Shown here: one piece after another, positions 5,421 to 46,480 of the stretch
Layout: each line of letters begins with the position of its first letter
Position numbering within the stretch: position 1 is the first letter of the stretch
DNA from: Zobellia nedashkovskayae
GTDB taxonomy: Bacteria; Bacteroidota; Bacteroidia; Flavobacteriales; Flavobacteriaceae
Reading direction: 5' to 3'
Length of the DNA: 64,000 bases
Assembly: GCF_015330125.1 (NCBI RefSeq)
Contig: NZ_JADDXR010000002.1
Span: 1,860,001-1,924,000 of the forward strand
Made by a program: the position numbers and the translations under genes
The notes under the pieces: model-generated
The model's input: the letters and a program-made list of their open reading frames with translations, nothing else
What the model was told of the DNA's origin: nothing
Databases searched by the model: none

Positions 5421-6158
5421 ATGATGAAGAGAAGACAATTCATAAACCGAACGGCTCTTGCCGCAGTAGGTACTAGTTTAATAGGGTGTTTTGACCATTC
5501 CAAATTCGAATTAAAGAAAAATCAAGTAGTAGGTTGTTTTGGAGATAGCATCACCTACTCAGGTTATAATGGCTATGTTGAAATGCTACAAGAGAAGTTC
5601 AATAAAGAAAAACCGGAACTCAATATTAAGTTTATCAACTTTGGTAAAAGTAGTGAAACCGTAAGTGGACTCACAGAAGAAGACCATCCTGGCCCAAGGC
5701 CTTACCTTTTTGAGCGCCTAGATGAAATTCTTGACAAAAACCCAATAGATGTGGCACTTTTCTGCTACGGTATCAATGACGGAATTTATGGAAAACCTTC
5801 AGAGGAATTATTTAGAAGCTTTAAAATAGGGGTCTATTCGTTCCTTGAAAAAATGCGTCAGAGAGATATTAAGACCATTTTATTAACGCCACCGCCATTG
5901 GCCGAGCGGCATTTGGAAAATCAGAACACTGCTTCGTATAGCTATAAAAATCCGTATCCAAAATATGATAAGGAAGTATTGGAAAAGTTTACGGATATCA
6001 TTTTAGAAATGCAGCATCCTTATGCGAATGCCGAGATAAACATTCGCAAACCTCTTTTTAAAAATCAAAAGGAGTGCTATGATAAGGATCCAGTTCATCC
6101 AAATAAGAACGGTCATAGATTGATTGCCGATACGATTTTTGGTAATTTATCGTTTTAA
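5421..6158 (+). CDS. SGNH/GDSL hydrolase, exported lipoprotein
   Basis: The 245-residue protein begins with MKRRQFINR and a hydrophobic stretch ending in a lipobox-like LIGC (C23), so it is likely exported, possibly by Tat because of the RRQF pair, and lipidated. All four SGNH blocks are visible: GDSIT with nucleophile S43, the oxyanion Gly G75 in FGKSS, YGIND (N119), and DPVHPN (D223, H226). This family removes acyl groups from carbohydrates, lipids or other esters. It lies 18 bases after the GntP permease. The start at 5421 could also be the second ATG at 5424. Confidence 0.9.
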   Translation: MMKRRQFINRTALAAVGTSLIGCFDHSKFELKKNQVVGCFGDSITYSGYNGYVEMLQEKFNKEKPELNIKFINFGKSSETVSGLTEEDHPGPRPYLFERLDEILDKNPIDVALFCYGINDGIYGKPSEELFRSFKIGVYSFLEKMRQRDIKTILLTPPPLAERHLENQNTASYSYKNPYPKYDKEVLEKFTDIILEMQHPYANAEINIRKPLFKNQKECYDKDPVHPNKNGHRLIADTIFGNLSF

Positions 6159-6216
6159 CATTGCCTTAAGTCCCCATGGCAGGGTATTTGTTATCTTTAT
6201 CCTGATTTTTTATTCG

Positions 6217-6876
6217 ATGACCAAAAACTATTCGGTACTGTTGTTCGCTATGATGCTGTTTTCCTTTTCGGGGATGGCACAGACTGATATTCCTCAAAAG
6301 AAAGAGTTGAAAATAGAAACGGCGAATAAGATTGATGATAATGCTGAGCCTGATCAAGGTACTTCTTTAAACATTCCGTCTGTAGTAGAAGATCAACCTC
6401 AGGTAGATTTTGATATTGCTAAGCGTAATCCTGTAAAAATGATTGATGACCGCGAACTTGTTCAGGCAGGTGCCGGTATGAAAATTGATCCTAAAGTAGG
6501 GCCAAGACAACCTGAAGAAGGTTCTAAACAACACTTTGCGGACATGTACTTGGGCGACGTTAAAAACAACGGAAAATTCGTTGGTATTATGTGTCGTGAT
6601 CACGAAAACGTTGATGGGGACCGTGTAAAAATTTATGTGAATGGTGACGTGGTTGACACTAATATTCTTTTAACAAGCTCTTTTAAAGGGGTAAACGTTG
6701 ATTTAAAAAAAGGATTCAATCGTATAGATTTTGAAGCACTTAATGTTGGTGCGTATGCGCCTAATACCGCTCAGGTAAACGTCTATGATGACAAAGGAGA
6801 AATTATCTATGCCACCAAATGGTTACTTTCTGAAGGTTCAAAAGCTACTTTGATTATAACAAAAGAAGAAGACTAA
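6217..6876 (+). CDS. Secreted protein of unknown function
   Basis: I choose the ATG at 6217 because it gives a clean signal peptide (MTKNYSVLLFAMMLFSFSG, cut after AQ). A longer in-frame extension to 6124 would overlap the SGNH gene and lacks a signal sequence. The mature protein is about 198 residues. It is acidic and Asp/Val-rich, and has a beta-rich C-terminal half with repeated patterns such as KIYVNGDVV and NVYDDKGEI, suggesting an Ig- or jelly-roll-like fold. I do not recognise a family. It is probably periplasmic or surface-exposed. The neighbour on the other side converges on it. Confidence 0.75.
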   Translation: MTKNYSVLLFAMMLFSFSGMAQTDIPQKKELKIETANKIDDNAEPDQGTSLNIPSVVEDQPQVDFDIAKRNPVKMIDDRELVQAGAGMKIDPKVGPRQPEEGSKQHFADMYLGDVKNNGKFVGIMCRDHENVDGDRVKIYVNGDVVDTNILLTSSFKGVNVDLKKGFNRIDFEALNVGAYAPNTAQVNVYDDKGEIIYATKWLLSEGSKATLIITKEED

Positions 6877-6920
6877 AATTCAGTATTTTCTCTATTTATA
6901 CAGTGGGTTGCTTAAAAGAA

Positions 6921-9095
6921 CTAATCTCTTTTACCAGGTACATATTTCTCTTTAGCTCTTTTGACTACATCTTCATAGTAGAAAGGAACATCTTTCCAAT
7001 CCATATTTTTATATCTTTCAATCTGGTCGTTAAAATGAGGGGAACTTGGGTCTCCGCTTTGTCCACCTGCCAATATACTTTTAGCCTTTACTTTATCACC
7101 AAATTCCACAACCGCTACAAAACTATTTCCACGTGTTCCGTAGATTTTTTTTGCCCCTTCTGTGGTGTAACGAGCACCGTATGCAGCTAAAGCGCCCCAT
7201 CTTCCAGACGCAAATCCTATAGGAATACTTGGTTTAGAATCGTTGAAATGCTGCACTATATCTCCCGTAGTTCGCTGATATCTATTTACTTCTCCCCACG
7301 GTATTTTCCATGTTCCAAAGTCGGCCGTTAGGTCTTCTATTACTTCTTCAAATATCTTTAAACTCTCTTCCGTATGGGTCCCAAAATAGGTCATTCGTTC
7401 CATATCGCTAATCCCTTCTGGGTGTTTTGCCCTTTTGCCCATAGCAGTGCCGTAGTAATGAGCCAGCGTCATGGCCACTTGATTTTCTCCTGTAGTGTAA
7501 TCCCAATTTTTAAGAATGGAAATGGGTTCCTTTAATTTCGGGTTTTTATCATCGTGAGAATTGTAAGCTTTAACTAAGCCTGGAATCAATGCTTGAAAAG
7601 CCGGCAAAAAAGGGTCGTGTGCCAGTTGAATTAAACTGTCTATAGTATATCCTTTTCTATCTTTCAATAATTCAATAGCATGAACTCCTCTAAAATTCTC
7701 TTGGTCTCTGGACATGTAATAGGGGTAATCCTCTTTCTTTGGACTGAACCCCAGAGCAGAGGTATAGGGAGTGGAATTGCAATTTTGTATCCACCCATTT
7801 TCTGGATTCAATACTAAAATATTTTCATCTACCGTATGTAATCCCTGCCAATCGGTCTTTGGATTACTACCATCAACTGGCTCCGCATAATTAAACTGAA
7901 CATCTCGCTTAGGTACAAAATTACCATGGAAATAGGCAATGTTTCCCTCGGCATCTGCATACACCGTATTATTGCTAGAATTGGTGCGGATATCCATCAT
8001 ATCATGAAATCCTTTATAGCCTTTTTGTTTGGTACGTATAAAAGATTGTTCCAAAGCTTTTACTGGCTCCCACATCATAGCGGAAGCTGTCCATTGACCA
8101 TCGGCAACATGCGTTATTGGTCCGTGGTGGGTTCTATATGTCGGATATTTTTTTTCTTTCAGTTCATCGCCATCAAGATATTTCAACATTATTTCAGAAG
8201 ATTCAATAGGTCGTAATTCTTCTCCATATTGATAGAACAAATGGTCATCATTCTTAACAATTGTTTCCTTGAATTCATCCATTACATCCGTGTAAGTAGA
8301 TGTATGCATCCAACCGGTATTTTCATTAAATCCTTGATACACAAAAAACTGCCCCCAAGTTACCGCTCCATAAGCATTTAATCCTTCCTCAGAAACTACG
8401 TGAACCTCCCCTCTAAAATAAAATGAAGTATGCGGATTGATTAATAACAACGGATTTCCGGACTGTGTCAGTTTTCCTGAAATAGCAATACCGTTTGACC
8501 CTTGCGGTTCTTCAATCTCTTTTTCCTTTTTCATTTGAAGTATTTCAGCTTCTGGCAGCTCCATATCGCTTTCATAAAAAGCAGCTATTTTCTTTGTTGA
8601 AATTCGTTCAATATCTCCGCCAATAGACCCTTCGCTAAAATACATTGGCATCCAAGGTTCAAAATGTGTCAATAATTTTGGTGTTACTTCCGGGTGTGTG
8701 TATAAATAGTAATTGACTCCGTTGGCAAAGGCATCACATAATTCTTTTAGCCAAGCGGGGCTTTTTTCATAGTTAGCTTTAGCCTCTTCTTCGGTCATGA
8801 ACAGTTTTGCACGTAGATCACTATACAGCGCATCTTCACCGTCTACTTCTGCCAGTCTTCCTGTTGCCCAAATATAATTTTGCTCTACACGGTTAAAATC
8901 ATCTTCACATTGTGCGTATAATAACCCAAAGACTGCATCGGCATCTGTCTTTCCATAGATGTGAGGTACTCCAAAATCATCTCTTATAATCTCAACATTT
9001 GCAGTATGAGTCTTCCATTTTTCTACCTCTATGTTTTTCTGTTGTGCGCTACAGGAAAAAAGGAAGAAGTAACTTATTAGTACTACATATTTCAT
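6921..9095 (-). CDS. Penicillin acylase family (Ntn hydrolase) lipoprotein
   Basis: This 724-residue precursor starts with MKYVVLISYFFLFSC, a lipoprotein signal with C15. The N-terminal alpha chain includes RDDFGVPHIYG and QCEDDFNRV, typical of penicillin/acyl-homoserine-lactone acylases. The autoproteolytic junction is at EPQG/SNG, making S200 the N-terminal nucleophile of the beta chain; TGWMHTS supplies the oxyanion region. Family members hydrolyse amide bonds of beta-lactams, N-acyl-homoserine lactones or peptides in the periplasm. The physiological substrate is unknown, and quorum quenching is only one possibility. It is a single-gene unit divergent from the ABC transporter. Confidence 0.93.
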   Translation of the reverse strand: MKYVVLISYFFLFSCSAQQKNIEVEKWKTHTANVEIIRDDFGVPHIYGKTDADAVFGLLYAQCEDDFNRVEQNYIWATGRLAEVDGEDALYSDLRAKLFMTEEEAKANYEKSPAWLKELCDAFANGVNYYLYTHPEVTPKLLTHFEPWMPMYFSEGSIGGDIERISTKKIAAFYESDMELPEAEILQMKKEKEIEEPQGSNGIAISGKLTQSGNPLLLINPHTSFYFRGEVHVVSEEGLNAYGAVTWGQFFVYQGFNENTGWMHTSTYTDVMDEFKETIVKNDDHLFYQYGEELRPIESSEIMLKYLDGDELKEKKYPTYRTHHGPITHVADGQWTASAMMWEPVKALEQSFIRTKQKGYKGFHDMMDIRTNSSNNTVYADAEGNIAYFHGNFVPKRDVQFNYAEPVDGSNPKTDWQGLHTVDENILVLNPENGWIQNCNSTPYTSALGFSPKKEDYPYYMSRDQENFRGVHAIELLKDRKGYTIDSLIQLAHDPFLPAFQALIPGLVKAYNSHDDKNPKLKEPISILKNWDYTTGENQVAMTLAHYYGTAMGKRAKHPEGISDMERMTYFGTHTEESLKIFEEVIEDLTADFGTWKIPWGEVNRYQRTTGDIVQHFNDSKPSIPIGFASGRWGALAAYGARYTTEGAKKIYGTRGNSFVAVVEFGDKVKAKSILAGGQSGDPSSPHFNDQIERYKNMDWKDVPFYYEDVVKRAKEKYVPGKRD

Positions 9096-9214
9096 AAGGC
9101 TCTATTTATACTTACAATATACTACCAAACTCCAAATAAATCGAACCAACTTACGGGATAACCTGCTTGTTTTTTTCGTTTTGTGTACCTTGCAGGCTTC
9201 ATTTAATCATTATT

Positions 9215-10951
9215 ATGGCCGAGAAAAAAGTTAGTATGCTTACCGCGTTTAAGACCATTATATGGCCAAGAAGAAACCTTGTATTTATTGGACTCCTCCT
9301 TATAGTAATTAGTAAAGCAGCAAGTTTTGTGGCGCCTTTATCCCTCAAATATTTGATGGACGATATTATACCAAATAAGGATATAGATTTTTTAAAATTA
9401 CTTGTAGGTGCAGTTGCCCTGGCTATACTAGTGCAATCCGTCACTTCGTTTCTATTGACGAAAATATTGAGCGTTCAGGCACAGTTTCTAATCTCTGAAC
9501 TTAGGGCTCAGGTACAGAAAAAAGTACTATCGTTACCTATTAGCTTTTTTGATAATGCAAAATCTGGAGCTTTGGTGTCCCGTATAATGAGTGATGTAGA
9601 AGGGGTACGTAACCTAATCGGCACAGGTCTGGTACAACTTGTTGGTGGTACTATTACCGCGGTGGTTTCACTTATATTGCTTTTGCGGATTAGTTGGACA
9701 ATGACAATCTTCACATTAGTGCCTCTGGCCATTTTTGCATTGATTGCGCTTAAGGCATTTAAAATCATTAGACCCATTTTTAGAAATAGGGGAAAAATAA
9801 ATGCAGAGGTAACAGGACGTCTTACCGAAACTTTAGGCGGAGTGCGTGTAATCAAAGGCTTTAATGCCGAGGAACAAGAAAATAAAATATTTGAAAAAGG
9901 GGTTGATCGTCTTTTTCAAAATGTAAAAAAGAGTTTAACTGCCACTGCTTTCATGACTAGTTCGTCTACCTTCCTTTTGGGTATTGCCACAACGGGAATT
10001 ATGGGCATAGGTGGTTATAAGATAATGATGGATGAGCTTACGATAGGTGAATTCTTAACCTTTACCTTTTTATTAGGGTTGATGGTCGCACCTATTGTTC
10101 AGATGAGTAATATTGGTAGTCAGTTAACAGAAGCCTTGGCTGGTTTGGATCGTACCGAAGAACTTATGAATATGGTTCCGGAATCTGATGAAGAAAACCG
10201 GACCATAGTTCTGGACGATATTAAAGGTGATATTGTTTTTGATGATGTATCCTTTGCTTATGAGGAAGATAAAGAAGTGCTTCATAATATTAATTTTGAA
10301 GTAAAATCTGGTAACGTAGTTGCTTTGGTGGGTAGTTCCGGTTCTGGAAAATCTACCATAGCCGGGTTGGCAGCTACTTTTTTAAATCCTCAGTCGGGTA
10401 AGATTACCATAGACGGTAAGGATGTAGCAAAAGTTAACCTAAACAGTTTTAGGCAGCACCTTGGAGTGGTCTTACAAGATGATTTTCTTTTTGAGGGCAC
10501 TATACGTGAGAACATTCTATTCCCGCGACCTAATGCTACGGAAGAACAATTGCAGCAATCGGTAAAAGCTGCTTACGTAAATGAATTTACGGATAGGTTT
10601 GAAGATGGATTGGATACTTTGATAGGGGAGCGGGGCGTTAAACTTTCCGGTGGTCAACGCCAACGTATTGCTATTGCACGAGCTGTTTTGGCAGATCCTA
10701 AAATTTTAATTCTAGATGAGGCTACATCTAATTTGGATACGGAAAGCGAAGCTTTGATTCAAAAGAGTTTAGCGGCCTTAACAGAAGGTCGTACCACTTT
10801 TGTAATAGCACACAGATTGAGCACCATCCGAAAAGCAAATCAGATTTTGGTTATTGAAAACGGAAAAATTGCTGAACAAGGTACCCACGATGAGCTTATT
10901 GCCAAAGAAGGCAGGTACTTCAATTTATTTACCTATCAGGCAAGAATCTAA
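9215..10951 (+). CDS. ABC transporter, fused permease and ATPase (MsbA/ABCB type)
   Basis: The start at ATG 9215 (MAEKKVSML) is preferred over a TTG 48 bases upstream, which would add a Cys-rich unlikely leader. The 578-residue half-transporter has about six membrane spans in the first 310 residues and then a nucleotide-binding domain. That domain contains Walker A GSSGSGKST, Q-loop VVLQDDF, signature LSGGQRQRI, Walker B ILILDEAT and H-loop IAHRLS. It should work as a homodimer exporting lipids, peptides or drugs across the inner membrane. The last four bases overlap the convergent ferredoxin gene. No specific substrate can be named. Confidence 0.95.
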   Translation: MAEKKVSMLTAFKTIIWPRRNLVFIGLLLIVISKAASFVAPLSLKYLMDDIIPNKDIDFLKLLVGAVALAILVQSVTSFLLTKILSVQAQFLISELRAQVQKKVLSLPISFFDNAKSGALVSRIMSDVEGVRNLIGTGLVQLVGGTITAVVSLILLLRISWTMTIFTLVPLAIFALIALKAFKIIRPIFRNRGKINAEVTGRLTETLGGVRVIKGFNAEEQENKIFEKGVDRLFQNVKKSLTATAFMTSSSTFLLGIATTGIMGIGGYKIMMDELTIGEFLTFTFLLGLMVAPIVQMSNIGSQLTEALAGLDRTEELMNMVPESDEENRTIVLDDIKGDIVFDDVSFAYEEDKEVLHNINFEVKSGNVVALVGSSGSGKSTIAGLAATFLNPQSGKITIDGKDVAKVNLNSFRQHLGVVLQDDFLFEGTIRENILFPRPNATEEQLQQSVKAAYVNEFTDRFEDGLDTLIGERGVKLSGGQRQRIAIARAVLADPKILILDEATSNLDTESEALIQKSLAALTEGRTTFVIAHRLSTIRKANQILVIENGKIAEQGTHDELIAKEGRYFNLFTYQARI

Positions 10952-34939: not shown

Positions 34940-35857
34940 CTAACTTTTTGTTTTTTGGTAGTCCGTCAACTTTTGAGGACCTTCCAGTAAAACACGTACT
35001 ACACGAAGTGTGCCATCATCTGTGGTAGATATTTGCCATTTTATAAGTGAAATACTTCCTTTCTCAATTTCAATACCGGTTATGCTTCGTGGATGAACAC
35101 AGCTACCATCATTAAAAAAGGGAATGTCTCCGGGCTCGGGAAAGCGTGGCCGGTGGGTATGACCAACTATGGTGATTAAAAGGTTGTTTTTTAGTATCCA
35201 CTTTTTAATACGGCGTTCTATTTTTATAAGTTCCTTATAGTTCTTAGCCGGACTAGTAGGATCTGCAATGCCCCACACCTGTAGTGGTTTCCATAGTGCA
35301 CGCACTAAAAAGCGGCTCCAGCGCCAAAAGGTATAGTTCCACCAATCTGCCTGATGGCCGTGGGTCAGGAAAATTTTTTGTTCGGTATTTTTATGCTGCA
35401 GTATAATACCCTCATGATAGGTAATGCCTTCAAAAAGTTCTTTAGATTCCCCGTCTATAGGTTCAAAATAGCTGCTTAGATTCTTTTTTACATAATCTGG
35501 GTCTTTATAGACCATGTCATGGTTTCCCCATATCATATGAAGTCTGCGACCTAAATGATATTTTCGCAAAAGCTCATAAACATTCTTGTGGGCCTGAAAA
35601 ATAGATTCAAAAAATCGGTTTTCCCAAAGCTCGTCGCCATCGCCTATTTCGCAATAATCAAACCCATTTTTATAATAGAAATTTAGGGCATGAAAGTAGA
35701 TATTTCGGTTGTTTGCGAAGTCATCGGCAAAACTATTGTCACCCCTGTGGCAGTCACTAAAGAGGATAAATTTCGATTCATCGTCAAAAGGTACCGTTTT
35801 GGCAGTTTGGTACGCTTTGGATAACCTTGTATTGGACGACATATCGTAAATTTGCAT
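34940..35857 (-). CDS. Metallophosphoesterase (calcineurin-like)
   Basis: The 305-residue protein has no signal peptide. It carries the five metallophosphoesterase motifs: FSDCHRGD, EIGDGDELWE, WGNHD, LTHGHQAD and VGHTHRP. Two divalent metals would be held by these residues to hydrolyse a phosphoester. The size and motif spacing fit the UDP-2,3-diacylglucosamine pyrophosphatase/MPE branch, but the substrate cannot be fixed from sequence. An alternative start is the ATG 15 bases downstream (MSSNTRL). It is divergent from the GAF protein gene, 94 bases apart. Confidence 0.85.
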   Translation of the reverse strand: MQIYDMSSNTRLSKAYQTAKTVPFDDESKFILFSDCHRGDNSFADDFANNRNIYFHALNFYYKNGFDYCEIGDGDELWENRFFESIFQAHKNVYELLRKYHLGRRLHMIWGNHDMVYKDPDYVKKNLSSYFEPIDGESKELFEGITYHEGIILQHKNTEQKIFLTHGHQADWWNYTFWRWSRFLVRALWKPLQVWGIADPTSPAKNYKELIKIERRIKKWILKNNLLITIVGHTHRPRFPEPGDIPFFNDGSCVHPRSITGIEIEKGSISLIKWQISTTDDGTLRVVRVLLEGPQKLTDYQKTKS

Positions 35858-35951: not shown

Positions 35952-38336
35952 ATGAGAATGGAGAAAAACTACGAAGCAGATTTACCAATTACCCAGCTAA
36001 TAAGCTTTAATAAGCTTATGGAGCAGTATGATGTCATGGCTAAAAGTGACAATTTCACTGAGGCGGAGAAGGCGCAGCGTATTTTAAAGGCAGCAGAACC
36101 GTATCCTGAACTTCGTGATGGTTTTAATGATGTTTCTTTACTTAAAAAGCATAAGAACATTATTCATTTCATTTTACAAGATATCTTCCCACAGGTTGTA
36201 ACCAATAATGAGATAAAGACCGCTTCTTTACCTTATAATGATGTAATCTTTAATTCCTCTAAGCGGTTTAAAAGAATATTGAAAGATGCAGGTGGTGAGA
36301 ATTTTATTCCACAAATGCGGAATCTACCTGAGCACCAAATGTACATTGTGGCGTGTACGGTAATTCTTAATTTTCACTATGGTTTCAATTTTGATTTTAA
36401 GAGACCATTTTTTTATGATCTTCCCGATAAGAATGGCGTAATGCGTCATTATAGAATCTTGTACAATGCAGATTTCATGGAAATTTTGCCTACAGATACG
36501 GCAAAGGAGCTTACCCAGAAAGATGTTGATGAATTGCTAGATAATTTTGATAATATAGAGCTTTGGAAGGAAAAAATTCCGCCACATAGTTTTGTGTCAA
36601 AAGGTTTTGTCATTTCCAATATGTTTGATGTAACTGCAGAACATTCTATCTCAGAAATAAAATCTAGCCTGATTGCTAATGACAAGCGCAGCAGTGATAA
36701 TTTCATGAGCGATTTGCAGGAAACTTTTAGATCTTTCTTCAATTCACCAGATATTAAGGTGGGCTTTGTGGAGTATAATCCTAAAGAGAATCGTTTTGAA
36801 AAAGTTTTTGCAAATGGTATGGAGAGTTTTCTTTTGGGAGATAAAGACGCTCTACATTGTACAACAGCCTTATGTAAAAGTTCATACAGCAGATTATTAG
36901 ATCAGAATAATTATTTTGCTATTTCAGATGTAGATCGTCATTACGATATTTCTGGAGGAATGGCTCTCTATGATGGTCTTAGGGAAAAAGGTATAAAAAG
37001 TGCTATTCTGGCGCCTATTGCAGATAATGGTGGTCTTTTAGGTGTATTGGAGCTTGTAGCATATGAGCCCAATGTATTGAATAGTGTGAATGCCAATAAA
37101 TTAGAAGACGTAATGCCTTTTATTGTATCGGCAGTATTACGAACTAAAGCAGAGGAAAGTAACCTGATTGATGCAGTTATTCAAAATGAATGTACATCGG
37201 TTCACGATTCCGTATACTGGCGTTTTGAGCAAGAAGCCAAACGTTTTGTTAAGGATAATTCAGAAGGTAGGAGTGCTACTTTTAAGGAAATTGTCTTTAA
37301 AAATGTGTACCCGTTATATGGTCAAATAGATATTAAAGATTCATCTCAGGCACGTAACACTGCAATTCAGCGCGACTTGATGATTCAACTTTCTACTATA
37401 AATAAAGTGCTTGAAACTGCATGGCAGCATAGTAAGTTACCTATTTATGAAGAGTTGATGTTCAGGGTGAATAATCATATGGACAGCATTAAAGAAAGCC
37501 TGCACACTAACAGCGAGCAAGCTATTTTTAATTTTGTAATGGATGAAATAAATCCTGTGTTCTCTCATTTGAAAAAATCTGATAATGAGTTGAATAATTT
37601 GATTCTTTCTTATGAGTCTTCCGTAGATATGGGAACAGATTCCTATTATGATCACAGACGTAATTATGACGAAAGTGTTACGCGAATCAATATGAGATTG
37701 GCTTCGTTGATCGATAAGAAGCAAAAGAATGCGCAAGGTATGTTTCCGCATTACTTTGAGCGGTATAAGACGGATGGTGTTGAGCACAACATGTACATTG
37801 GTAATGAGATTGTAGGTGATCAAGAATTTGATATGCTCTATCTCAATAACCTTCGCTTGTGGCAGTTACAGGTTATGTGCGAGATGGAAAATGCACATTA
37901 TGCTTTAAAGCCTAAATTAGCTGTGCCTTTAGACGTGGCTTCATTAGTTTTGGTTTATAGTACGTCACTTTCAATCCGTTTTAGAATGGATGAAAAGCGT
38001 TTTGATGTAGACGGCACGTACAATGCGCGATATGAAATTATCAAGAAACGTATAGATAAATCTTATATAAAAGGAACCGATGAGCGTTTAACGCAGGCTG
38101 GTAAAATGGTCATTGTCTATTCTCAGAAAAAAGATGAGCTAGAGTACCTCAGATACATTACTTTTCTTCGCTCTAAAGGCTACTTTACCGGTAAGGTAGA
38201 GATTGTTGAATTAGAGGGACTACAAGGCGTAAGCGGACTAAAAGCTATACGGGCAGACATTCTTTACAAAACTAAAGATAACAACCAGGAAAAGACGTAC
38301 ACGTACGAAGATCTTATGAATGAATTAAAGGCTTAG
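35952..38336 (+). CDS. Large GAF-domain protein of unknown function
   Basis: The 794-residue cytosolic protein has an N-terminal helical part (about 1-240) with no recognised family. A GAF-like domain follows (about 245-400), containing DIKVGFVEYNPKENRFEKVF and ISDVDRHYDISGG, then GIKSAILAPIADNGGLLGVLEL. Next comes a long, mostly helical region (400-720), and the chain ends in a small alpha/beta module (EYLRYITFLRSKGYFTGKVE). GAF domains bind cyclic nucleotides or other small ligands. The stop overlaps the convergent HD-PycTM stop by four bases. I do not know a function; homologues seem confined to Bacteroidota. Confidence 0.8.
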   Translation: MRMEKNYEADLPITQLISFNKLMEQYDVMAKSDNFTEAEKAQRILKAAEPYPELRDGFNDVSLLKKHKNIIHFILQDIFPQVVTNNEIKTASLPYNDVIFNSSKRFKRILKDAGGENFIPQMRNLPEHQMYIVACTVILNFHYGFNFDFKRPFFYDLPDKNGVMRHYRILYNADFMEILPTDTAKELTQKDVDELLDNFDNIELWKEKIPPHSFVSKGFVISNMFDVTAEHSISEIKSSLIANDKRSSDNFMSDLQETFRSFFNSPDIKVGFVEYNPKENRFEKVFANGMESFLLGDKDALHCTTALCKSSYSRLLDQNNYFAISDVDRHYDISGGMALYDGLREKGIKSAILAPIADNGGLLGVLELVAYEPNVLNSVNANKLEDVMPFIVSAVLRTKAEESNLIDAVIQNECTSVHDSVYWRFEQEAKRFVKDNSEGRSATFKEIVFKNVYPLYGQIDIKDSSQARNTAIQRDLMIQLSTINKVLETAWQHSKLPIYEELMFRVNNHMDSIKESLHTNSEQAIFNFVMDEINPVFSHLKKSDNELNNLILSYESSVDMGTDSYYDHRRNYDESVTRINMRLASLIDKKQKNAQGMFPHYFERYKTDGVEHNMYIGNEIVGDQEFDMLYLNNLRLWQLQVMCEMENAHYALKPKLAVPLDVASLVLVYSTSLSIRFRMDEKRFDVDGTYNARYEIIKKRIDKSYIKGTDERLTQAGKMVIVYSQKKDELEYLRYITFLRSKGYFTGKVEIVELEGLQGVSGLKAIRADILYKTKDNNQEKTYTYEDLMNELKA

Positions 38337-39535
38337 GTAGGTAATTCAATGATTCTTTCTGGGCCGTAGAATTTTAGGGCTACAAAAAATGCAATTACAG
38401 ATAACGTCATTCCAATCATAAAGACGGTATACGTCCAACGTAATAGTTTGTACTTTCTATCTAATACTAGACCTAAAAAGTAGAGGTCTTTCGTTAAGGA
38501 ATCGTACACGTATTTTTGGTCTTTAATCAATTCTTGAATGGCCCATTCGTAATCCTCAAGTTTCATTTTATGAAAGTTGCCAAAAAACAATAGGTTCACT
38601 TTCTTTTTAATGACATCATCTTTGGAAAACTCACCACTAGTAACATTAGGTCTTGTTGCCAATACGGACATGATCATAGAGGCTACACTAAAGAGAACAA
38701 AAATACCTGCAGGAATCACCAAATAATCGTTTGATGGATTATCTAACTTAGGAATAAGATTGGAAAGCATTAAAGAAATGATAATCGCATTTACAGACAA
38801 AAGAATGTTTGCCTTGGTATCTGCAATGTCACTCAGTTTTAAGTGATTTCGCATGGTAACGCGGAACATGGTCTGTATACCTCTCTCTGGGCTTTGGTTT
38901 TTAAGCTGAATTTTTAATTCTTCTTTTTTACGAGTCTTCTTTTGTTTCTTGTCCCGCTTTACTAATTTTTTAAGGTTATTGTCTTTTCCTTCTTGCCAGT
39001 TTTTTAAGGCATAGTCCGTATAAAAACGATGTTCTGTTTGGAACATTTTAATGTTGGTCCGGCGCCATTCCTTAGTTGAAATTTCGGCAATGCCTAATAG
39101 CTGCAATTCTTCTCGCAACATTTCACAGGTCTCGGGATAACTAGATCGTGCCAAGTGAGAGGAATCAGCATCTCTCATGATTTCTTCCATCAAGTTTTGA
39201 GGTTCATAGCCTCGTTTGGTAGCCATAATCAGACTGCAGACCGTTTCAATAGTTAGTGGTTCGCAATTTTGCTTGGTAAGAAATTCCTTTGCTATAACAC
39301 AGCTGCTTTCCTCGTGATTTTCTGAGCCTTTTGTATAACCCGTGTCATGAAGCCACGCAGCAAGTGTTATTGCGTCACTATCAATGGCGTTTAAGTTATA
39401 ATAATCAAGCAATTCTTTAGTACTTTTGACAACTCGCTGGGTATGCCTAAGATTATGATACAAATAGTTGGTATCTAATTCTTTGACTAGCAGGTTAATT
39501 GCAAATTCTTCGGTTTTCGATAGTAAATCCGGCAT
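38333..39535 (-). CDS. HD phosphohydrolase fused to Pycsar-effector-type membrane domain
   Basis: The 400-residue protein has an N-terminal HD domain with H31 (HNLRHTQRVV), H63-D64 (WLHDTGY) and D122/D124 (MRDADSSHL), a complete HD metal site. A basic, Lys-rich linker (185-215) leads to a PycTM module (about 225-390) with its hallmark SDIADTKANILLSVNA and membrane spans near 245-262, 271-293 and 368-390. PycTM domains are membrane effectors in Pycsar anti-phage systems, activated by cCMP or cUMP. Here no pyrimidine cyclase is nearby. The HD domain may degrade or sense a nucleotide. The start is 12 bases from the divergent phosphatase gene. Confidence 0.88.
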   Translation of the reverse strand: MPDLLSKTEEFAINLLVKELDTNYLYHNLRHTQRVVKSTKELLDYYNLNAIDSDAITLAAWLHDTGYTKGSENHEESSCVIAKEFLTKQNCEPLTIETVCSLIMATKRGYEPQNLMEEIMRDADSSHLARSSYPETCEMLREELQLLGIAEISTKEWRRTNIKMFQTEHRFYTDYALKNWQEGKDNNLKKLVKRDKKQKKTRKKEELKIQLKNQSPERGIQTMFRVTMRNHLKLSDIADTKANILLSVNAIIISLMLSNLIPKLDNPSNDYLVIPAGIFVLFSVASMIMSVLATRPNVTSGEFSKDDVIKKKVNLLFFGNFHKMKLEDYEWAIQELIKDQKYVYDSLTKDLYFLGLVLDRKYKLLRWTYTVFMIGMTLSVIAFFVALKFYGPERIIELPT

Positions 39536-39547
39536 GAAAAATTATTT

Positions 39548-42500
39548 ATGGTTCCAAATTACAAAATATTGAGAGTGAATAGTGTTCTATTTCGTAAACA
39601 TTTTGCACTAGTAGCATTGTTGGCTCTGTTTTCAGGTTGTGCTACCTTTAAAACAAAGTATGCAAACGAAGAAGGTAAAATAGATGTTCCTACTACAAAA
39701 GAAGTTTCACACACGTTTTATCTTATAGGAGATGCGGGTTTATCTCCTATGGATGGAATGAACGACGCGCTTAAAATTTTTAAAGATAAATTAGACAAAG
39801 CGGATAAGAACAGTACTGCACTATTTTTAGGGGATAATATTTATCCTGCAGGTCTTCCTGATCCTATAGATTCTACTGCTGCCTATATTTTGGCAAAAAA
39901 TGATTTGGATGCCCAATTAAAGACTTTGGCAGATTTTAAAGGGAAGCCCATTTTTATACCAGGCAATCATGATTGGTATACGGAAGGATTGGTAGGTCTA
40001 GAGCGAGAACAAGATTACATTCAGGAAAAGTTAGATAGTAAAGATGTTTTTTTTCCCGAAGATGGTTGTCCTATAGAAACAATAGAGGTAAATGATGATG
40101 TAACTATTATAGCAATAGATACGGAGTGGTACTTGACCAATTGGAACAAGCGCCCAGATATGAATGACAAGTGTGATATTAAGACCAGAGATAAATTCTG
40201 GTTGGAGCTTGAGGATAAAATTAAAGATAATAGACAAAAAACTACGGTCATAGCTATGCACCACCCAATGTTCAGTTATGGAACGCATGGTGGGCAATAT
40301 ACGTTTAAGTCGCATTTCTACCCCAAAGGGAAAATAGGGCCGTTGCCTATTCTTGGAAGCTTTATAAATGTTTTGAGGAGAACAACTGGTGCGTCTATAG
40401 AAGATATGACCAACAAGAGGTATACTGAGCTAAAAAAGCGTTTGTTGACTTTGGCTCAGTATTCAGAAAAAGTGGTATTGGCTTCAGGACATGAGCATAC
40501 ACTTCAATATATAGTAGAAGAAAATACACCACAAATCGTAAGTGGGTCCGGTGCTAAGACGGGAGCAACAAATTTATTGAACGGCAGTAAGTTTTCAACA
40601 GGAGAAAGAGGTTACGCCACTTTAGAGGTGTATACAGATGGTTCATCACAAGTGCGTTTCTTTGGAGTGGATGCTAATAAAAACGAAGAGTTTTTGTATA
40701 CGTCTCAGGTTTTACCTCCAAACAGGACGTTCTCTGAGGATAAGTATCCTGATACATTTCCGGCTACGGTAAAAGCTTCGATTTATTCGGAAGATGATGT
40801 GGATAAAAGCGGATTTTTTAAATTTCTGTGGGGCGAGCGTTATCGTAAATATTATGCAACAAAAGTAGAAGCTCCAACGGTAAATTTAGATACCCTTATG
40901 GGAGGTTTGGTTCCGGTTCACAAAGGAGGTGGGCATCAGTCCAAATCATTACGATTAAGGGATAAGGATGGTAAAGAATTTGTCATGCGAGCCCTTCATA
41001 AAGATGCGGAACTGTATTTACAGGCTATGGCTTTTCAAGATCAATTTGTAATGGGTGATTTTGAGAACACCTACACAGAAAATCTTCTTCTTGATTTTTA
41101 TACCGGCTCTAACCCATATGGGCCTTTTACAACTGGAGTTTTATCTGATGCAGTGGGTCTATATCATACTAATCCGGTTCTATACTACGTGCCAAAGCAA
41201 CCAGCGTTAAAGGAGTACAACCAATCTTTTGGGGATGAACTTTATATGATAGAAGAGCACGCAGGAGATGGTCACGGAGACTTAGAGAGCTTTGGTTATT
41301 CCAATGAACTAAAGAGTACGGATAGCATGCTTGAAGATTTACGTGATGACGAGAAGTACTCTGTAGATTCTGAAATGTATTTAAGAGCAAGACTTTTTGA
41401 TATGGTCATGGGAGATTGGGACCGTCATGTAGATCAATGGAGATGGGCGGAGTTTGAGGATAAAGAAAATGACAAAATACTATACCAACCCGTACCAAGA
41501 GATCGCGATATGGTCTATTCAAAACATGGGGATGGCTTCTTTATGAACTTGGCCACGAGAATTATACCCGGCTTACGTTTAATGGAAGGTTTTAATGAAG
41601 ACATAAGAAATGTAAAAGGCTTCAATTCTTCACCAAAAACCTATGTGCTGGATATGGCTCTTTTAACGCAGACCACACCACAAGAATGGCAAGAACAGGC
41701 CAAATTTATTCGTGAGAATCTTACTTCCGAAGTTATTGACAAAGCATTTATGCATTTTCCTGAAGAAGTTAGGGATGAGACGGTAGATGAAATAAAGAGT
41801 ATACTCTTGGCTAGAGCAGCCAATATTGAAGAAACTGCCCGAATTTATTACGGAGTTTTAAATAAGTACGCGGTAGTTGTAGGTACGGATAAAGATGATT
41901 GGTTTGAGGTGAATATCTTAAATGATAGGGAAACCGAGGTTAAAGTATATAGAAATATAAAAGGCGAAAGGGAGAAACTGTTCTTTAAAAAGGTTTTTAA
42001 TAAAAGTAGTACTAAAGAAGTATGGGTGTACGGTTTGGATGATGATGATATTTTTGAAGTAAACGGAGATGAAAGAAGTGCCATTAAGATGCGTTTGGTA
42101 GGAGGGCAGAATAATGATATCTATAGGGTAAATGAAGGTGGTAATATTGCCATTTATGATTATAAAACTAAAAAGAACACCATAGAAGAACTTAGTGGAG
42201 CTAAGTTAAAACTAACGGACGACTACAACACCAATAACTACTTGCCTTTGCAAATACGAAACTCGGTGAATCAAATTATTCCAACTATTGGTTATAACCC
42301 AGATGATGGGGTTAAAATAGGATTCAGTGATATCTATACTTTTAACGGTTTTAGACAAAATCCTTTTACACAACAGCATAAGCTAGATGCTTCATATTAT
42401 TTTGCAACCAGTGGTTTTGAATTAGGGTATAGCGGTGAGTTTGCTCATATTTTTGAAAATTGGAACTTGCATTTTGGAGCCCGTTTTACGAGTCCGAACT

Positions 42501-43300
42501 TCGCTATTAATTTCTTCGATTTTGGGAATAGTACCGATAATTTTGATGACGATTTAGGTTTGGATTATAACCGAGTGCGTTTGCAGACGCTTAAGTTTGC
42601 GCCCGCTTTGGTTTGGCGAGGAGATTTAGGCGCAAAATTTAAAGCAGGTGTTTCGTACGAGTCTATTGAGGTAGAAGAAAGTGATGATAGATTCATTAAT
42701 ACCTATTACCAGGCCAATGGTGAGGAAACTGTAAATAGGTTTGTAGGTGTTGATGCGGAATATTCATATGCCAATTCGGACAATGCGGCATTCCCAACTA
42801 TGGGTATGTCTACTTCTCTCTTAACAGGATATAAAAGAAGTACAGAGAACGGGAATGCTTTTGGATACATCATACCAAGCTTAAGTTTTGATTATAAATT
42901 GATACCTAGCGGTAGATTGGTTTTGGCAACAAAATGGAAAGCACATTTTAATATTGGCGATGATTACGAATTTTATCAAGGAGCTAGTATAGGTGGTTTA
43001 GATGGGTTAAGGGGTTTTAGAAACCAAAGGTTTACCGGTAAAAAATCGTATTATCAGAATACGGACATCCGCTATAGTCTTAGAAAAATAAAGACGCAAT
43101 TACTACCATTGGCCATGGGGCTTTATGGTGGTTTTGATTATGGTAGAGTTTGGTTGCCAAAAGAAAATTCCAAAGATTGGCATACCTCTTACGGAGGTGG
43201 TTTTTTCCTAAACGGAGCAGATATTGTTACGGCACGTTTAGCACTTTTTAATAGTGATGACGGACTTCGCTTTTCTTTTGGACTAGGTTTTGGGTTTTAA
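39548..43300 (+). CDS. Large lipoprotein: metallophosphoesterase, kinase-like middle part and Omp85-type barrel
   Basis: The 1250-residue protein has a lipobox at C31 (FSGC). A GTG at 39575 would give a tighter signal peptide than the ATG at 39548. Residues 55-350 are calcineurin-like: D62 (LIGDAGL), GDN 95-97, GNHD 139-142, MHHP and GHEH. Residues about 460-760 resemble a kinase-fold: GGGHQSKSLRLRD with FVMRAL, then MGDWDRHVDQWRW (D625, R626, H627) and PVPRDRD (D652, D654), like CotH/FAM20/HipA catalytic and metal motifs. The C-terminal third is beta-rich, with LRGF (1154-1157), as in Omp85 barrels, ending in GFGLGFGF-like strands. Likely outer membrane. The middle domain call is inference. 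Confidence 0.75.
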   Translation: MVPNYKILRVNSVLFRKHFALVALLALFSGCATFKTKYANEEGKIDVPTTKEVSHTFYLIGDAGLSPMDGMNDALKIFKDKLDKADKNSTALFLGDNIYPAGLPDPIDSTAAYILAKNDLDAQLKTLADFKGKPIFIPGNHDWYTEGLVGLEREQDYIQEKLDSKDVFFPEDGCPIETIEVNDDVTIIAIDTEWYLTNWNKRPDMNDKCDIKTRDKFWLELEDKIKDNRQKTTVIAMHHPMFSYGTHGGQYTFKSHFYPKGKIGPLPILGSFINVLRRTTGASIEDMTNKRYTELKKRLLTLAQYSEKVVLASGHEHTLQYIVEENTPQIVSGSGAKTGATNLLNGSKFSTGERGYATLEVYTDGSSQVRFFGVDANKNEEFLYTSQVLPPNRTFSEDKYPDTFPATVKASIYSEDDVDKSGFFKFLWGERYRKYYATKVEAPTVNLDTLMGGLVPVHKGGGHQSKSLRLRDKDGKEFVMRALHKDAELYLQAMAFQDQFVMGDFENTYTENLLLDFYTGSNPYGPFTTGVLSDAVGLYHTNPVLYYVPKQPALKEYNQSFGDELYMIEEHAGDGHGDLESFGYSNELKSTDSMLEDLRDDEKYSVDSEMYLRARLFDMVMGDWDRHVDQWRWAEFEDKENDKILYQPVPRDRDMVYSKHGDGFFMNLATRIIPGLRLMEGFNEDIRNVKGFNSSPKTYVLDMALLTQTTPQEWQEQAKFIRENLTSEVIDKAFMHFPEEVRDETVDEIKSILLARAANIEETARIYYGVLNKYAVVVGTDKDDWFEVNILNDRETEVKVYRNIKGEREKLFFKKVFNKSSTKEVWVYGLDDDDIFEVNGDERSAIKMRLVGGQNNDIYRVNEGGNIAIYDYKTKKNTIEELSGAKLKLTDDYNTNNYLPLQIRNSVNQIIPTIGYNPDDGVKIGFSDIYTFNGFRQNPFTQQHKLDASYYFATSGFELGYSGEFAHIFENWNLHFGARFTSPNFAINFFDFGNSTDNFDDDLGLDYNRVRLQTLKFAPALVWRGDLGAKFKAGVSYESIEVEESDDRFINTYYQANGEETVNRFVGVDAEYSYANSDNAAFPTMGMSTSLLTGYKRSTENGNAFGYIIPSLSFDYKLIPSGRLVLATKWKAHFNIGDDYEFYQGASIGGLDGLRGFRNQRFTGKKSYYQNTDIRYSLRKIKTQLLPLAMGLYGGFDYGRVWLPKENSKDWHTSYGGGFFLNGADIVTARLALFNSDDGLRFSFGLGFGF

Positions 43301-43316: not shown

Positions 43317-44183
43317 CTATTTAAGCACATATTCGTAAAGGTCTCTACCTTCTCTTTTTGTTTCCTCATCAGAAAGTAGAAGTGTGTTGTTGTCTAAAAA
43401 ACTAATGGATTCTAACTGAGTGCGGACCAATAAATCAATCTCTGTTCGGTTACTTTCCGGTAAATTCTCCAAGTCAAAATCAGTAATGGTCCAAATTTTT
43501 CCAGTGCTCAATAGAACCACGGTTTTTCCATCTGGAGAAATATCAGCGGAAGAAATTCTACAGGTATCCCAATCATCACACATGGTCATCTTGCCCAGAT
43601 ACTCTGCATCATAATCTCCTGGGGTATCAGGAACTCTATAAACAAGAGAAACACCAGTAAAAGGTCTTGTTCTGTTTTTAGTGAAAATATAGAGGTAATT
43701 ATTGTAGTGAAAAAAAGCTTCCGCATCGTAAAGTCGTTCGCTCTTTTTAGGAGGGAAATGCTTTTGTTGCGGATATTTAAAAGTTATTTTTTCTGCAGTG
43801 ATGTGATCTCCGCTTTCTAATTCTGGGTTGGGCAGTTTATAAATAACAAGGTTTTTTCGATCAATTTCATTATTACCAAAATCACCAATATATAAACTAC
43901 CTTTTTTGTCTTCAGTAAGGTCTTCCCAGTCGTGGTTTTTGGCGTTTTTTACTTTTAGTTCCCTTAAGACGTTTCCTTCATAATCTACTTGGGTAATGAC
44001 ATCATCATTACCACTATCTTCTATAAACCAAGCAGAATCCTTTGTGTAAGTAGCTATGCCGGAATTCTCTTTAAGGCTTTTTGGTAGTTTGGTCACATAG
44101 GTTAGTTGACCGTGATTAGCACAGCTATAGAAAAGAAACAGTACTACAACTTTAAGAGAAATTATTTTTGCTATTGATTTCAT
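43317..44183 (-). CDS. Lipoprotein, probable beta-propeller
   Basis: I take the ATG at 44183 (MKSIAKIISLKVVVLFLFYSC, lipobox Cys), since the longer extension starts with TTG. The 288-residue protein has repeated short beta-strand segments (GSLYIGDFGNNEIDRKN, DAEAFFHYNNYLYIFT, KTVVLLSTGKIWTI) that suggest a propeller fold, with possible catalytic or binding Asp/Asn loops. I do not assign an enzyme. It lies 33 bases after the GyrI-like gene on the same strand and may be the tail of the 13-kb operon. Confidence 0.7.
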   Translation of the reverse strand: MKSIAKIISLKVVVLFLFYSCANHGQLTYVTKLPKSLKENSGIATYTKDSAWFIEDSGNDDVITQVDYEGNVLRELKVKNAKNHDWEDLTEDKKGSLYIGDFGNNEIDRKNLVIYKLPNPELESGDHITAEKITFKYPQQKHFPPKKSERLYDAEAFFHYNNYLYIFTKNRTRPFTGVSLVYRVPDTPGDYDAEYLGKMTMCDDWDTCRISSADISPDGKTVVLLSTGKIWTITDFDLENLPESNRTEIDLLVRTQLESISFLDNNTLLLSDEETKREGRDLYEYVLK

Positions 44184-44216
44184 TGGGATGCGTTTTAATG
44201 AATACAAAGGTAAGTT

Positions 44217-45127: not shown

Positions 45128-46480
45128 TTAGTTTTGAGCTGTTGCGTTATTTGTTGCCATGTTAAGGTTGTCAACTACAAACTTACCAAGGTCCCTTCCT
45201 TGCTTTACACCTACTTCTACAGCAGCACGGTAGTGAATACCACCGTACATACGGCTAATTGCTGCTTCGTCTGCTGCTTGTTTAAAAGAGGTGAAACTAC
45301 GAATAGGTAGTCCGTAAGGTATTTCGGTATCATCATCAAAAGCAAAGTCATCACCAAATACATCTGTTAACGCAACTGATGCAGCTCCTGATACAACACT
45401 ATGTCCACTTGTATATTCTGGAAATGGTGGTGTCTGCAAAACCGGCTTCCAGCTATCGTCTATATGTTGATTAATCAAAGTTTCTGGGCGAATAAGGTTA
45501 CTTCGGTATTTCTCGTCCCAACAACTGATAAAAGCATCTGCCATTGCAATGGACGCTTTGGTGTAAGCGTATAAAGATTTGCGGAAATCACTTTTAGTTT
45601 TACGTGCTGCTATTTTTGCTATACCCATCCAGTGTGCACCTGGGGTAATTTTTTTGGTAGCGAACATCAAATGGCCACGTGTAACTGAAACATAAGGGTT
45701 ACAATCCCAAAACTGGGCAATCTGGATTTCTTCGGAAGCATCACCTTCTTCGGTAATTCTATTACTGATATCGTAAACTTCTTTAAGTTCTTTATAAAAA
45801 GGGGAGTCCTCTTCAAGTGAAAACGCTGGTGGCGGAATTGGCATAAATTGAGAAGCGGAATCAATTACAAAAGTCCTGATTTTATTCCAATGAGGTTCAA
45901 TACCGTCCATATAAGCAGGAGGTGTAGGCTGCCATCTTGTTTCATCATCTGCATCTACCGTGAATTTTGGCATCGTCCGTGTTTGTGCATAGTTGTCTTC
46001 TTTCATCCAAGCAGCTATATGGTCTGCTACTTGCATGCCGTATTCTTTTGAGCTGGTAAACAGAACAGGGTTCTTACCTTCCCAAATTGTATAGAGGCTA
46101 TCACGGAGCATTTCCATACGATCTTCTGAAAAGATTAATTTCTTACTAAGCTCCATATGGGCCACCATGGCGGCAAGGTCATAGTTTACAGTATTAGTAG
46201 TGTCTGGCGAAGGAATGGCTGTAAGGCCATTAAGTTGCCCTGCTAAAGAGGTGTAATTATCGTCTGCCATAGCAACGATTTCATAAGCAGCAATATTTGG
46301 ATAAGCAAAAATTCTACTGGCTACAGGAGGGGAAAATATATCGTGAATCATAATATCCGTTACCTGGTTTATAGAAGCATCAAGATCTTCTGGGGTAATG
46401 GTTATAGGTTCTTCTTTTTGTGGAGCTTTACACGAAATCGCAAAAATAAGCGATAGTAATACGGTAATAATTTTGTTCAT
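45128..46480 (-). CDS. Vanadium-dependent haloperoxidase/PAP2-like lipoprotein
   Basis: The 450-residue protein begins with a lipoprotein signal (AISC, C17). The vanadate/phosphate-binding triad is visible: the Lys/Arg block KYRSNLIRP (K-x6-R-P), the TSGH motif (357-360, acid-base H360) and SRMYGGIHYRA (vanadate-ligand H416). Family members oxidise halides with hydrogen peroxide, or act as acid phosphatases with the same fold; sequence alone does not separate the two. It is the fourth gene of a run led by three CRTAC1 lipoproteins, which starts 7 bases upstream. Confidence 0.9.
   Translation of the reverse strand: MNKIITVLLSLIFAISCKAPQKEEPITITPEDLDASINQVTDIMIHDIFSPPVASRIFAYPNIAAYEIVAMADDNYTSLAGQLNGLTAIPSPDTTNTVNYDLAAMVAHMELSKKLIFSEDRMEMLRDSLYTIWEGKNPVLFTSSKEYGMQVADHIAAWMKEDNYAQTRTMPKFTVDADDETRWQPTPPAYMDGIEPHWNKIRTFVIDSASQFMPIPPPAFSLEEDSPFYKELKEVYDISNRITEEGDASEEIQIAQFWDCNPYVSVTRGHLMFATKKITPGAHWMGIAKIAARKTKSDFRKSLYAYTKASIAMADAFISCWDEKYRSNLIRPETLINQHIDDSWKPVLQTPPFPEYTSGHSVVSGAASVALTDVFGDDFAFDDDTEIPYGLPIRSFTSFKQAADEAAISRMYGGIHYRAAVEVGVKQGRDLGKFVVDNLNMATNNATAQN

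Follow-up and report, generated by a model that had tools for sequence, protein, structure and literature searches.

Heinz and Lithgow (2014) described an Omp85 subfamily, 'Metallo', with a PF00149 domain and genus-level conservation (PMC4104836). Their text reads PF00149 as a metalloprotease, lists one Omp85 group without an N-terminal part and leaves Metallo out of its POTRA-bearing clusters; the word 'kinase' is absent from its main part. In PlpD, the enzyme domain has been placed in the periplasm, where other Omp85 proteins have their POTRA domains (PMC11116518). Here we analyzed a gene at 39548..43300 of a 64,000-nucleotide stretch of Zobellia nedashkovskayae DNA (contig NZ_JADDXR010000002.1, positions 1,860,001 to 1,924,000; hereafter the window). 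Its product has PF00149 and an Omp85 barrel on one chain, the combination that defines 'Metallo', and between them a kinase-like domain, which is an unnamed new family carried by a known chassis. We give an even chance to its being an outer-membrane enzyme in which a periplasmic kinase of a new family is joined to a dispensable phosphatase, with the barrel as mount.

A predicted kinase-like domain on an Omp85 chassis

Residues 405-777 were modelled confidently by AlphaFold (predicted local distance difference test 93.5, predicted template modelling score 0.91) as a two-lobed kinase-like fold. CotH, HipA and FAM20, the relatives proposed for this segment in a preliminary description, were all recovered among the structural matches (Foldseek, VIA-align), and the model was nearest to lipid kinases and CotH. 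Where that description had allowed for residues 430-800 being an ordinary beta-rich linker, the model shows this fold instead. On the strength of the model, a protein-kinase-like (PKL) fold is close to certain for the middle domain, and phosphotransferase activity is probable. The gene has the following parts:

39548..43300, + strand: whole gene (lipoprotein signal, phosphatase, kinase-like domain, small beta domain, Omp85 barrel); ATG start, 1250 amino acids (aa)
39548..39640, + strand: signal peptide with lipobox-like LFSGC ending at C31; identified by motif only
39698..40726, + strand: purple-acid-phosphatase-like domain, residues 51-393 (GDAG 61-64, GDNIY 95-99, GNHD 139-142, H238, GHEH 314-317)
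40760..41878, + strand: kinase-like domain, residues 405-777 (AlphaFold, Foldseek, VIA-align)
40925..40963, + strand: glycine-rich loop and strand GGGHQSKSLRLRD, residues 460-472 (kinase-like domain alignment and model)
41411..41440, + strand: catalytic-loop motif GDWDRHVDQW, residues 622-631, with putative catalytic D625 (alignment, model, profile pairing)
41489..41509, + strand: metal-loop (DFG-like) motif PVPRDRD, residues 648-654, with D652 (alignment, model, profile pairing)
41879..42217, + strand: small beta domain, about residues 778-890, at the junction of kinase-like domain and barrel (secondary structure of the full model; conserved glycines and aspartates)
42266..43297, + strand: 16-stranded Omp85 barrel, residues 907-1250, with LRGF 1154-1157 (model fold)

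The reading frame and the motifs quoted in the preliminary description were all found at these residues, each once in the protein; D62 sits in GDAG 61-64, and GGGHQSKSLRLRD lies at 460-472. In the model of the kinase-like domain, GGGHQ lies on a hairpin (455-471), R481 and K485 on the next strand, and E569-E570 at a strand end; GDWDRHVDQ (622-630) follows a helix (608-621), and R651-D652-R653-D654 comes after a hairpin (631-650). Such an order of elements is the usual one in kinases. Judged by this order and by alignment with a CotH profile, the positions of the catalytic and metal aspartates fit a kinase.

Sequence databases were nearly silent on this domain. In Pfam, residues 56-253 matched a calcineurin-like phosphoesterase (E 1.5e-7) and residues 1147-1210 gave a short match to ShlB (22.8 bits, just above the cut-off); one further row was at chance level (E 0.16). 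NCBIfam detected Omp85_fam (NF047779) at 1074-1245 with an E of 1.9e-12, below the model's cut-off. Beyond the chance-level row, the middle region gave no Pfam or NCBIfam match in the window protein or in 36 relatives. CotH (PF08757) was not matched in the window protein (to E 10) or in the 36 members (to E 1), nor were HipA_C (PF07804) and the PI3/PI4 kinases (PF00454) in either, and no Fam20 family was listed by Pfam for them; 99 genomes of the phylum, searched for PI3/PI4-kinase relatives, yielded none. The likeness to FAM20 and to phosphatidylinositol 4-kinases is at the level of fold only. Sequence searches of solved structures found no match for the window protein (E <=1) or for a profile of the middle domain (E <=10). 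With a profile of 36 whole proteins, BamA-type barrels made up 30 of 31 rows, the remaining row being at chance level.

For profile comparison, 20 loci were fetched for CotH, of which 17 entered the profile after removal of three proteins longer than 600 aa; the HipA profile used 20 of 20. The CotH alignment pairs D625 with NWD and D652 with PWD of CotH. It scored 24.6, whereas the best of 60 column-shuffled controls reached 21.0 and reversed profiles gave 13.3 and 14.0. The HipA alignment covers the same loop, pairing D625 with D, H627 with H and Q630 with N. CotH and HipA are not linked to each other by this method (P 0.15). Under a first setting HipA gave P 0.0018 and CotH nothing, and a second setting swapped the order; HipA therefore carries no weight in our argument, and from CotH we use the residue pairing alone.

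For the N-terminal domain, the metallophosphoesterase assignment in the preliminary description was borne out by a purple-acid-phosphatase-like fold in the model. The motif set of purple acid phosphatases is GDxG, GDxxY, GNHD, xxxH and GHxH, and the metal-site residues D62, D96, Y99, N140, H141, H238, H315 and H317 are present in the window protein; this domain is a putative purple-acid-type phosphatase. The proposed barrel likewise emerged from the model with 16 strands and the Omp85 fold. PF01103 was found in 19 of the 36 members and is absent from the matches listed for the window protein. No POTRA domain was detected in Pfam scans of the 36 members, and none was apparent in the secondary structure of the full model.

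Conservation and distribution of the family

To define site conservation, 77 kinase-like domains were gathered by similarity, without selection on the motifs. Of these, 64 have all of R481, K485, D618, D623, D625, D652 and D654, so the motifs cannot be put down to chance. A second set of 62 full-length members was selected by the pattern DW[DS]R[HR]x[DE][QN]W (residues 623-631) and consisted of the window protein plus 61 others, left from 80 loci once cut frames, near-duplicates and some doubles had been removed; conservation is quoted outside the pattern. Six kinase-site residues outside it were kept in 61/62, versus 46/62 with all eight phosphatase-site residues intact, so the kinase site is the more strictly kept. 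Both sites were intact in 45/62, and both are present in the window protein.

A search with residues 385-834 found relatives in 112 of 296 sampled genomes (140 matches), which are Bacteroidota as judged by named relatives. The matching frames were at least 1150 aa long in 83 cases, 690-1050 aa in 43, 500-600 aa in eight and 420-440 aa in five, and one was cut; the recurrence of the long frame across many genomes excludes an accident of frame or assembly. In a further scan, the best 80 of 592 relatives were all titled Bacteroidota. The laboratory species Flavobacterium johnsoniae has a full-length member (L109). Among five matched records of plasmid-borne relatives, four read 'hypothetical protein' and the fifth was without annotation.

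Screening 151 proteins region by region, we found phosphatase, kinase-like domain and barrel together in 119, kinase-like domain and barrel in 19, and the kinase-like domain with or without the small domain in 13, with no case of phosphatase and barrel alone. The loci had been fetched via the kinase-like domain, with close relatives and the pattern-selected set included, so these counts are not frequencies and the zero says little. At L050, the three parts are encoded by consecutive genes: kinase-like (5751-7385), Metallophos (7402-8610) and Omp85 (8610-9794). By similarity, the trio recurs at L051; the two genomes share one genus (g67), so we count a single event. Such separate genes support a joint working of the three parts.

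Solo kinase-like proteins have a hydrophobic anchor at the start in 5/5 cases. By regular expression, a lipobox-like motif was present in six of eight proteins of 480-600 aa and in 48 of 118 long proteins; 13/118 long proteins and 5/20 of 690-1050 aa had neither lipobox nor anchor, perhaps because of wrongly assigned starts. The neighbours of the short forms had no common theme among ten proteins scanned. L041 (5129-10148) and L042 (5436-8775) encode adjoining kinase-like proteins without a barrel, five in all, and in two of the five, one per locus, SR-R replaces DR-H in the catalytic loop. At L095 (7869-11529), a phosphatase-kinase-barrel gene is apparently split into two frames.

Copies in the genome and neighbouring genes

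The source genome has three copies of the gene, the window copy looking complete, and a genuine CotH is encoded elsewhere in it. Paralogue L002 (43% identity) is without the usual phosphatase residues and keeps GDWDRH and PRDRD, and downstream of it run six more genes on its strand, ending with one for a PycTM protein; paralogue L003 (30% identity) has GDWGKH in the catalytic loop. At L194 (7369-18039), a Crp-type regulator lies ahead of an own-genome paralogue whose phosphatase site is worn; Rieske/glutamate-synthase-like, YjeF, thiamine-pyrophosphate-enzyme, Na/H-exchanger and PycTM genes and one gene without a match lie behind it.

The window gene has one conserved neighbour:

38333..39535, - strand: HD domain and PycTM membrane protein (Pfam PF18967, E 6.6e-37; PF01966, E 1.2e-6)

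It is divergent from the kinase-like gene, with 12 base pairs between the start codons, and PADLOC also labels it PycTM (E 1.2e-18). PycTM is an effector of Pycsar defence. In 118 genomes, taken to be G000-G117 of the 296-genome sample, with which the listed handles agree, the kinase-like domain occurred in 42, a relative of the neighbour in 52 and the two together in 36 (Fisher p 6e-12, ignoring kinship). Where both occurred, the nearest matches were within 12 kilobases (kb) in 28/36 genomes, within 6 kb in 25 and within 3 kb in 17. Some of the neighbour relatives are PycTM-only or HD-only pieces.

Further genes of the window were compared with 120 loci carrying the kinase-like domain. A 794-aa protein (35952-38336, + strand), with no Pfam, NCBIfam or PADLOC match and a middle stretch that is GAF-like by eye, has a relative in 33 of them. 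An SdiA-regulated-like protein (43317-44207, - strand), below the Pfam cut-off, has relatives in 19, downstream and opposite in 19/19. A second calcineurin-like phosphoesterase (34940-35857, - strand) and a PAP2 phosphatase (45128-46480, - strand) lie close by; neither has a relative in the 120 loci.

Proposed function and comparison with known systems

In the mechanism we propose, the signal peptide with its lipobox would export the protein, the C-terminal 16-stranded barrel seen in the model would lie in the outer membrane, and the N-terminal half would hang into the periplasm. D625 would act as the catalytic base, D652 together with Q630 or D629 would bind metal, R481 and K485 with the 460-464 loop would hold the phosphoryl donor, and the kinase-like core would transfer phosphate (or a similar group) onto a molecule of the envelope. 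The purple-acid-phosphatase domain would be a second, dispensable enzyme that takes phosphate off that molecule or a related one, or else recycles the used donor, and the small beta domain and barrel would be the mount. We consider the N-terminal half quite likely to be periplasmic, because of Omp85 topology and the location of the PlpD enzyme domain. Thus, of the surface machine envisaged in the preliminary description, the combination of phosphatase and kinase fold holds, and the surface location gives way to a likelier periplasmic one.

Several observations weigh against the proposed mechanism. Foldseek query TM-scores were low (0.36-0.40 for the top five, root-mean-square deviation 8-12 Å), and sequence identity with the structural matches was about 10%. 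The CotH sequence link is weak (hhalign P 0.043), and that to HipA was no better than controls (19.3 versus 19.2 for the best of 40 shuffles). The lipid or glycan substrate discussed below is a guess, and the phosphatase site is altered in 16/62 full-length members. R481 occupies the position expected for the usual lysine and Q630 that of the HipA asparagine, at least one of the seven site residues is missing in 13/77 domains (L003 included), and adenosine triphosphate (ATP) is not known to occur in the periplasm. These last three points would also suit a kinase fold that performs another reaction (transfer of adenosine monophosphate, glutamylation or the like) or a nucleotide-binding pseudokinase that regulates the phosphatase or barrel. 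We judge this alternative the less probable, though it deserves serious weight. A predicted kinase family with arginine for lysine and an otherwise conserved site is described in the text of PMC9758233, and the near-complete retention of the six unselected residues in full-length members also counts against it. Moreover, the phosphatase is absent from many forms, so regulating it cannot be the sole purpose of the kinase-like domain.

Surface lipoproteins are common in Bacteroidota, and the lipobox-like motif in many long proteins would agree with a barrel that carries or displays the enzymes on the outside of the cell, either in the way originally suggested for PlpD or in the manner of a surface lipoprotein, with outside phosphates as targets. 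The text of the 2014 Omp85 review leaves both Metallo orientations open (PMC4104836). Surface display is nevertheless unlikely, since the N-terminal domains of studied Omp85 proteins, including the PlpD enzyme domain, are periplasmic (PMC11116518), and the anchor of the solo forms would keep the domain in the periplasm. It is more improbable still that the protein is mainly a phosphate scavenger, with the acid phosphatase releasing phosphate from organic esters and the kinase-like part doing no more than bind nucleotides or sugars: the 43 matches of 690-1050 aa have the length of forms without phosphatase, and the members with an altered phosphatase site retain the kinase site. That the protein is a BamA/TamA-type factor for outer-membrane assembly, with the other domains as accessories, seems the most far-fetched, given conserved enzyme sites and a lack of POTRA domains both in the 36 members and, as far as apparent, in the model.

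For the preferred periplasmic kinase with dispensable phosphatase, a lipid or lipid-linked glycan is our tentative first guess at the substrate, because the model resembles lipid kinases and CotH most closely and the protein would be held at a membrane. A more speculative, rather doubtful extension would make the protein a writer and eraser in one: the exported kinase would mark a periplasmic envelope lipid, glycan or protein with a donor so far unknown in that compartment, the acid phosphatase would reset the mark, and the membrane-bound HD-PycTM partner would link the cycle to cytoplasmic nucleotide signals. Few kinase-like enzymes are known to work outside the bacterial cytoplasm, and how phosphate would reach envelope molecules without periplasmic ATP is an open question. 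The present family is a common, unnamed and exported kinase-like one with a clear active-site pattern, occurring in more than a third of the sampled genomes of its phylum, and its new kinase-fold part suggests that molecules of the cell envelope gain phosphate groups and at times lose them.

Of the open-licence papers listed by literature searches on Omp85 with phosphatase or kinase domains, none described this protein in its title or abstract opening. A Riemerella metallophosphoesterase that may or may not be a relative is counted among type IX effectors in a review (PMC10202324). Unlike CotH kinases, the family has no PF08757 match. It differs from FAM20 secretory kinases in lacking a Fam20 Pfam match and in being fused to a barrel, and from type II phosphatidylinositol 4-kinases in its 10% identity, the absence of PF00454 from the 36 members, its bacterial origin and its export. 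Unlike mammalian purple acid phosphatase, the phosphatase here is part of a larger envelope protein. The novelty claimed in the preliminary description thus stands for the kinase-like part and not for the phosphatase-plus-Omp85 half, known already as 'Metallo' (PMC4104836): in both, a PF00149 domain precedes the barrel on one chain, although the metalloprotease reading in the paper's text contrasts with the purple-acid-phosphatase-like fold found here. Like PlpD, the window protein has an enzyme domain fused ahead of an Omp85 barrel; PlpD combines a lipase-type domain with one POTRA, whereas the window protein, in which no POTRA was seen, combines two enzyme-type domains (PMC11116518).
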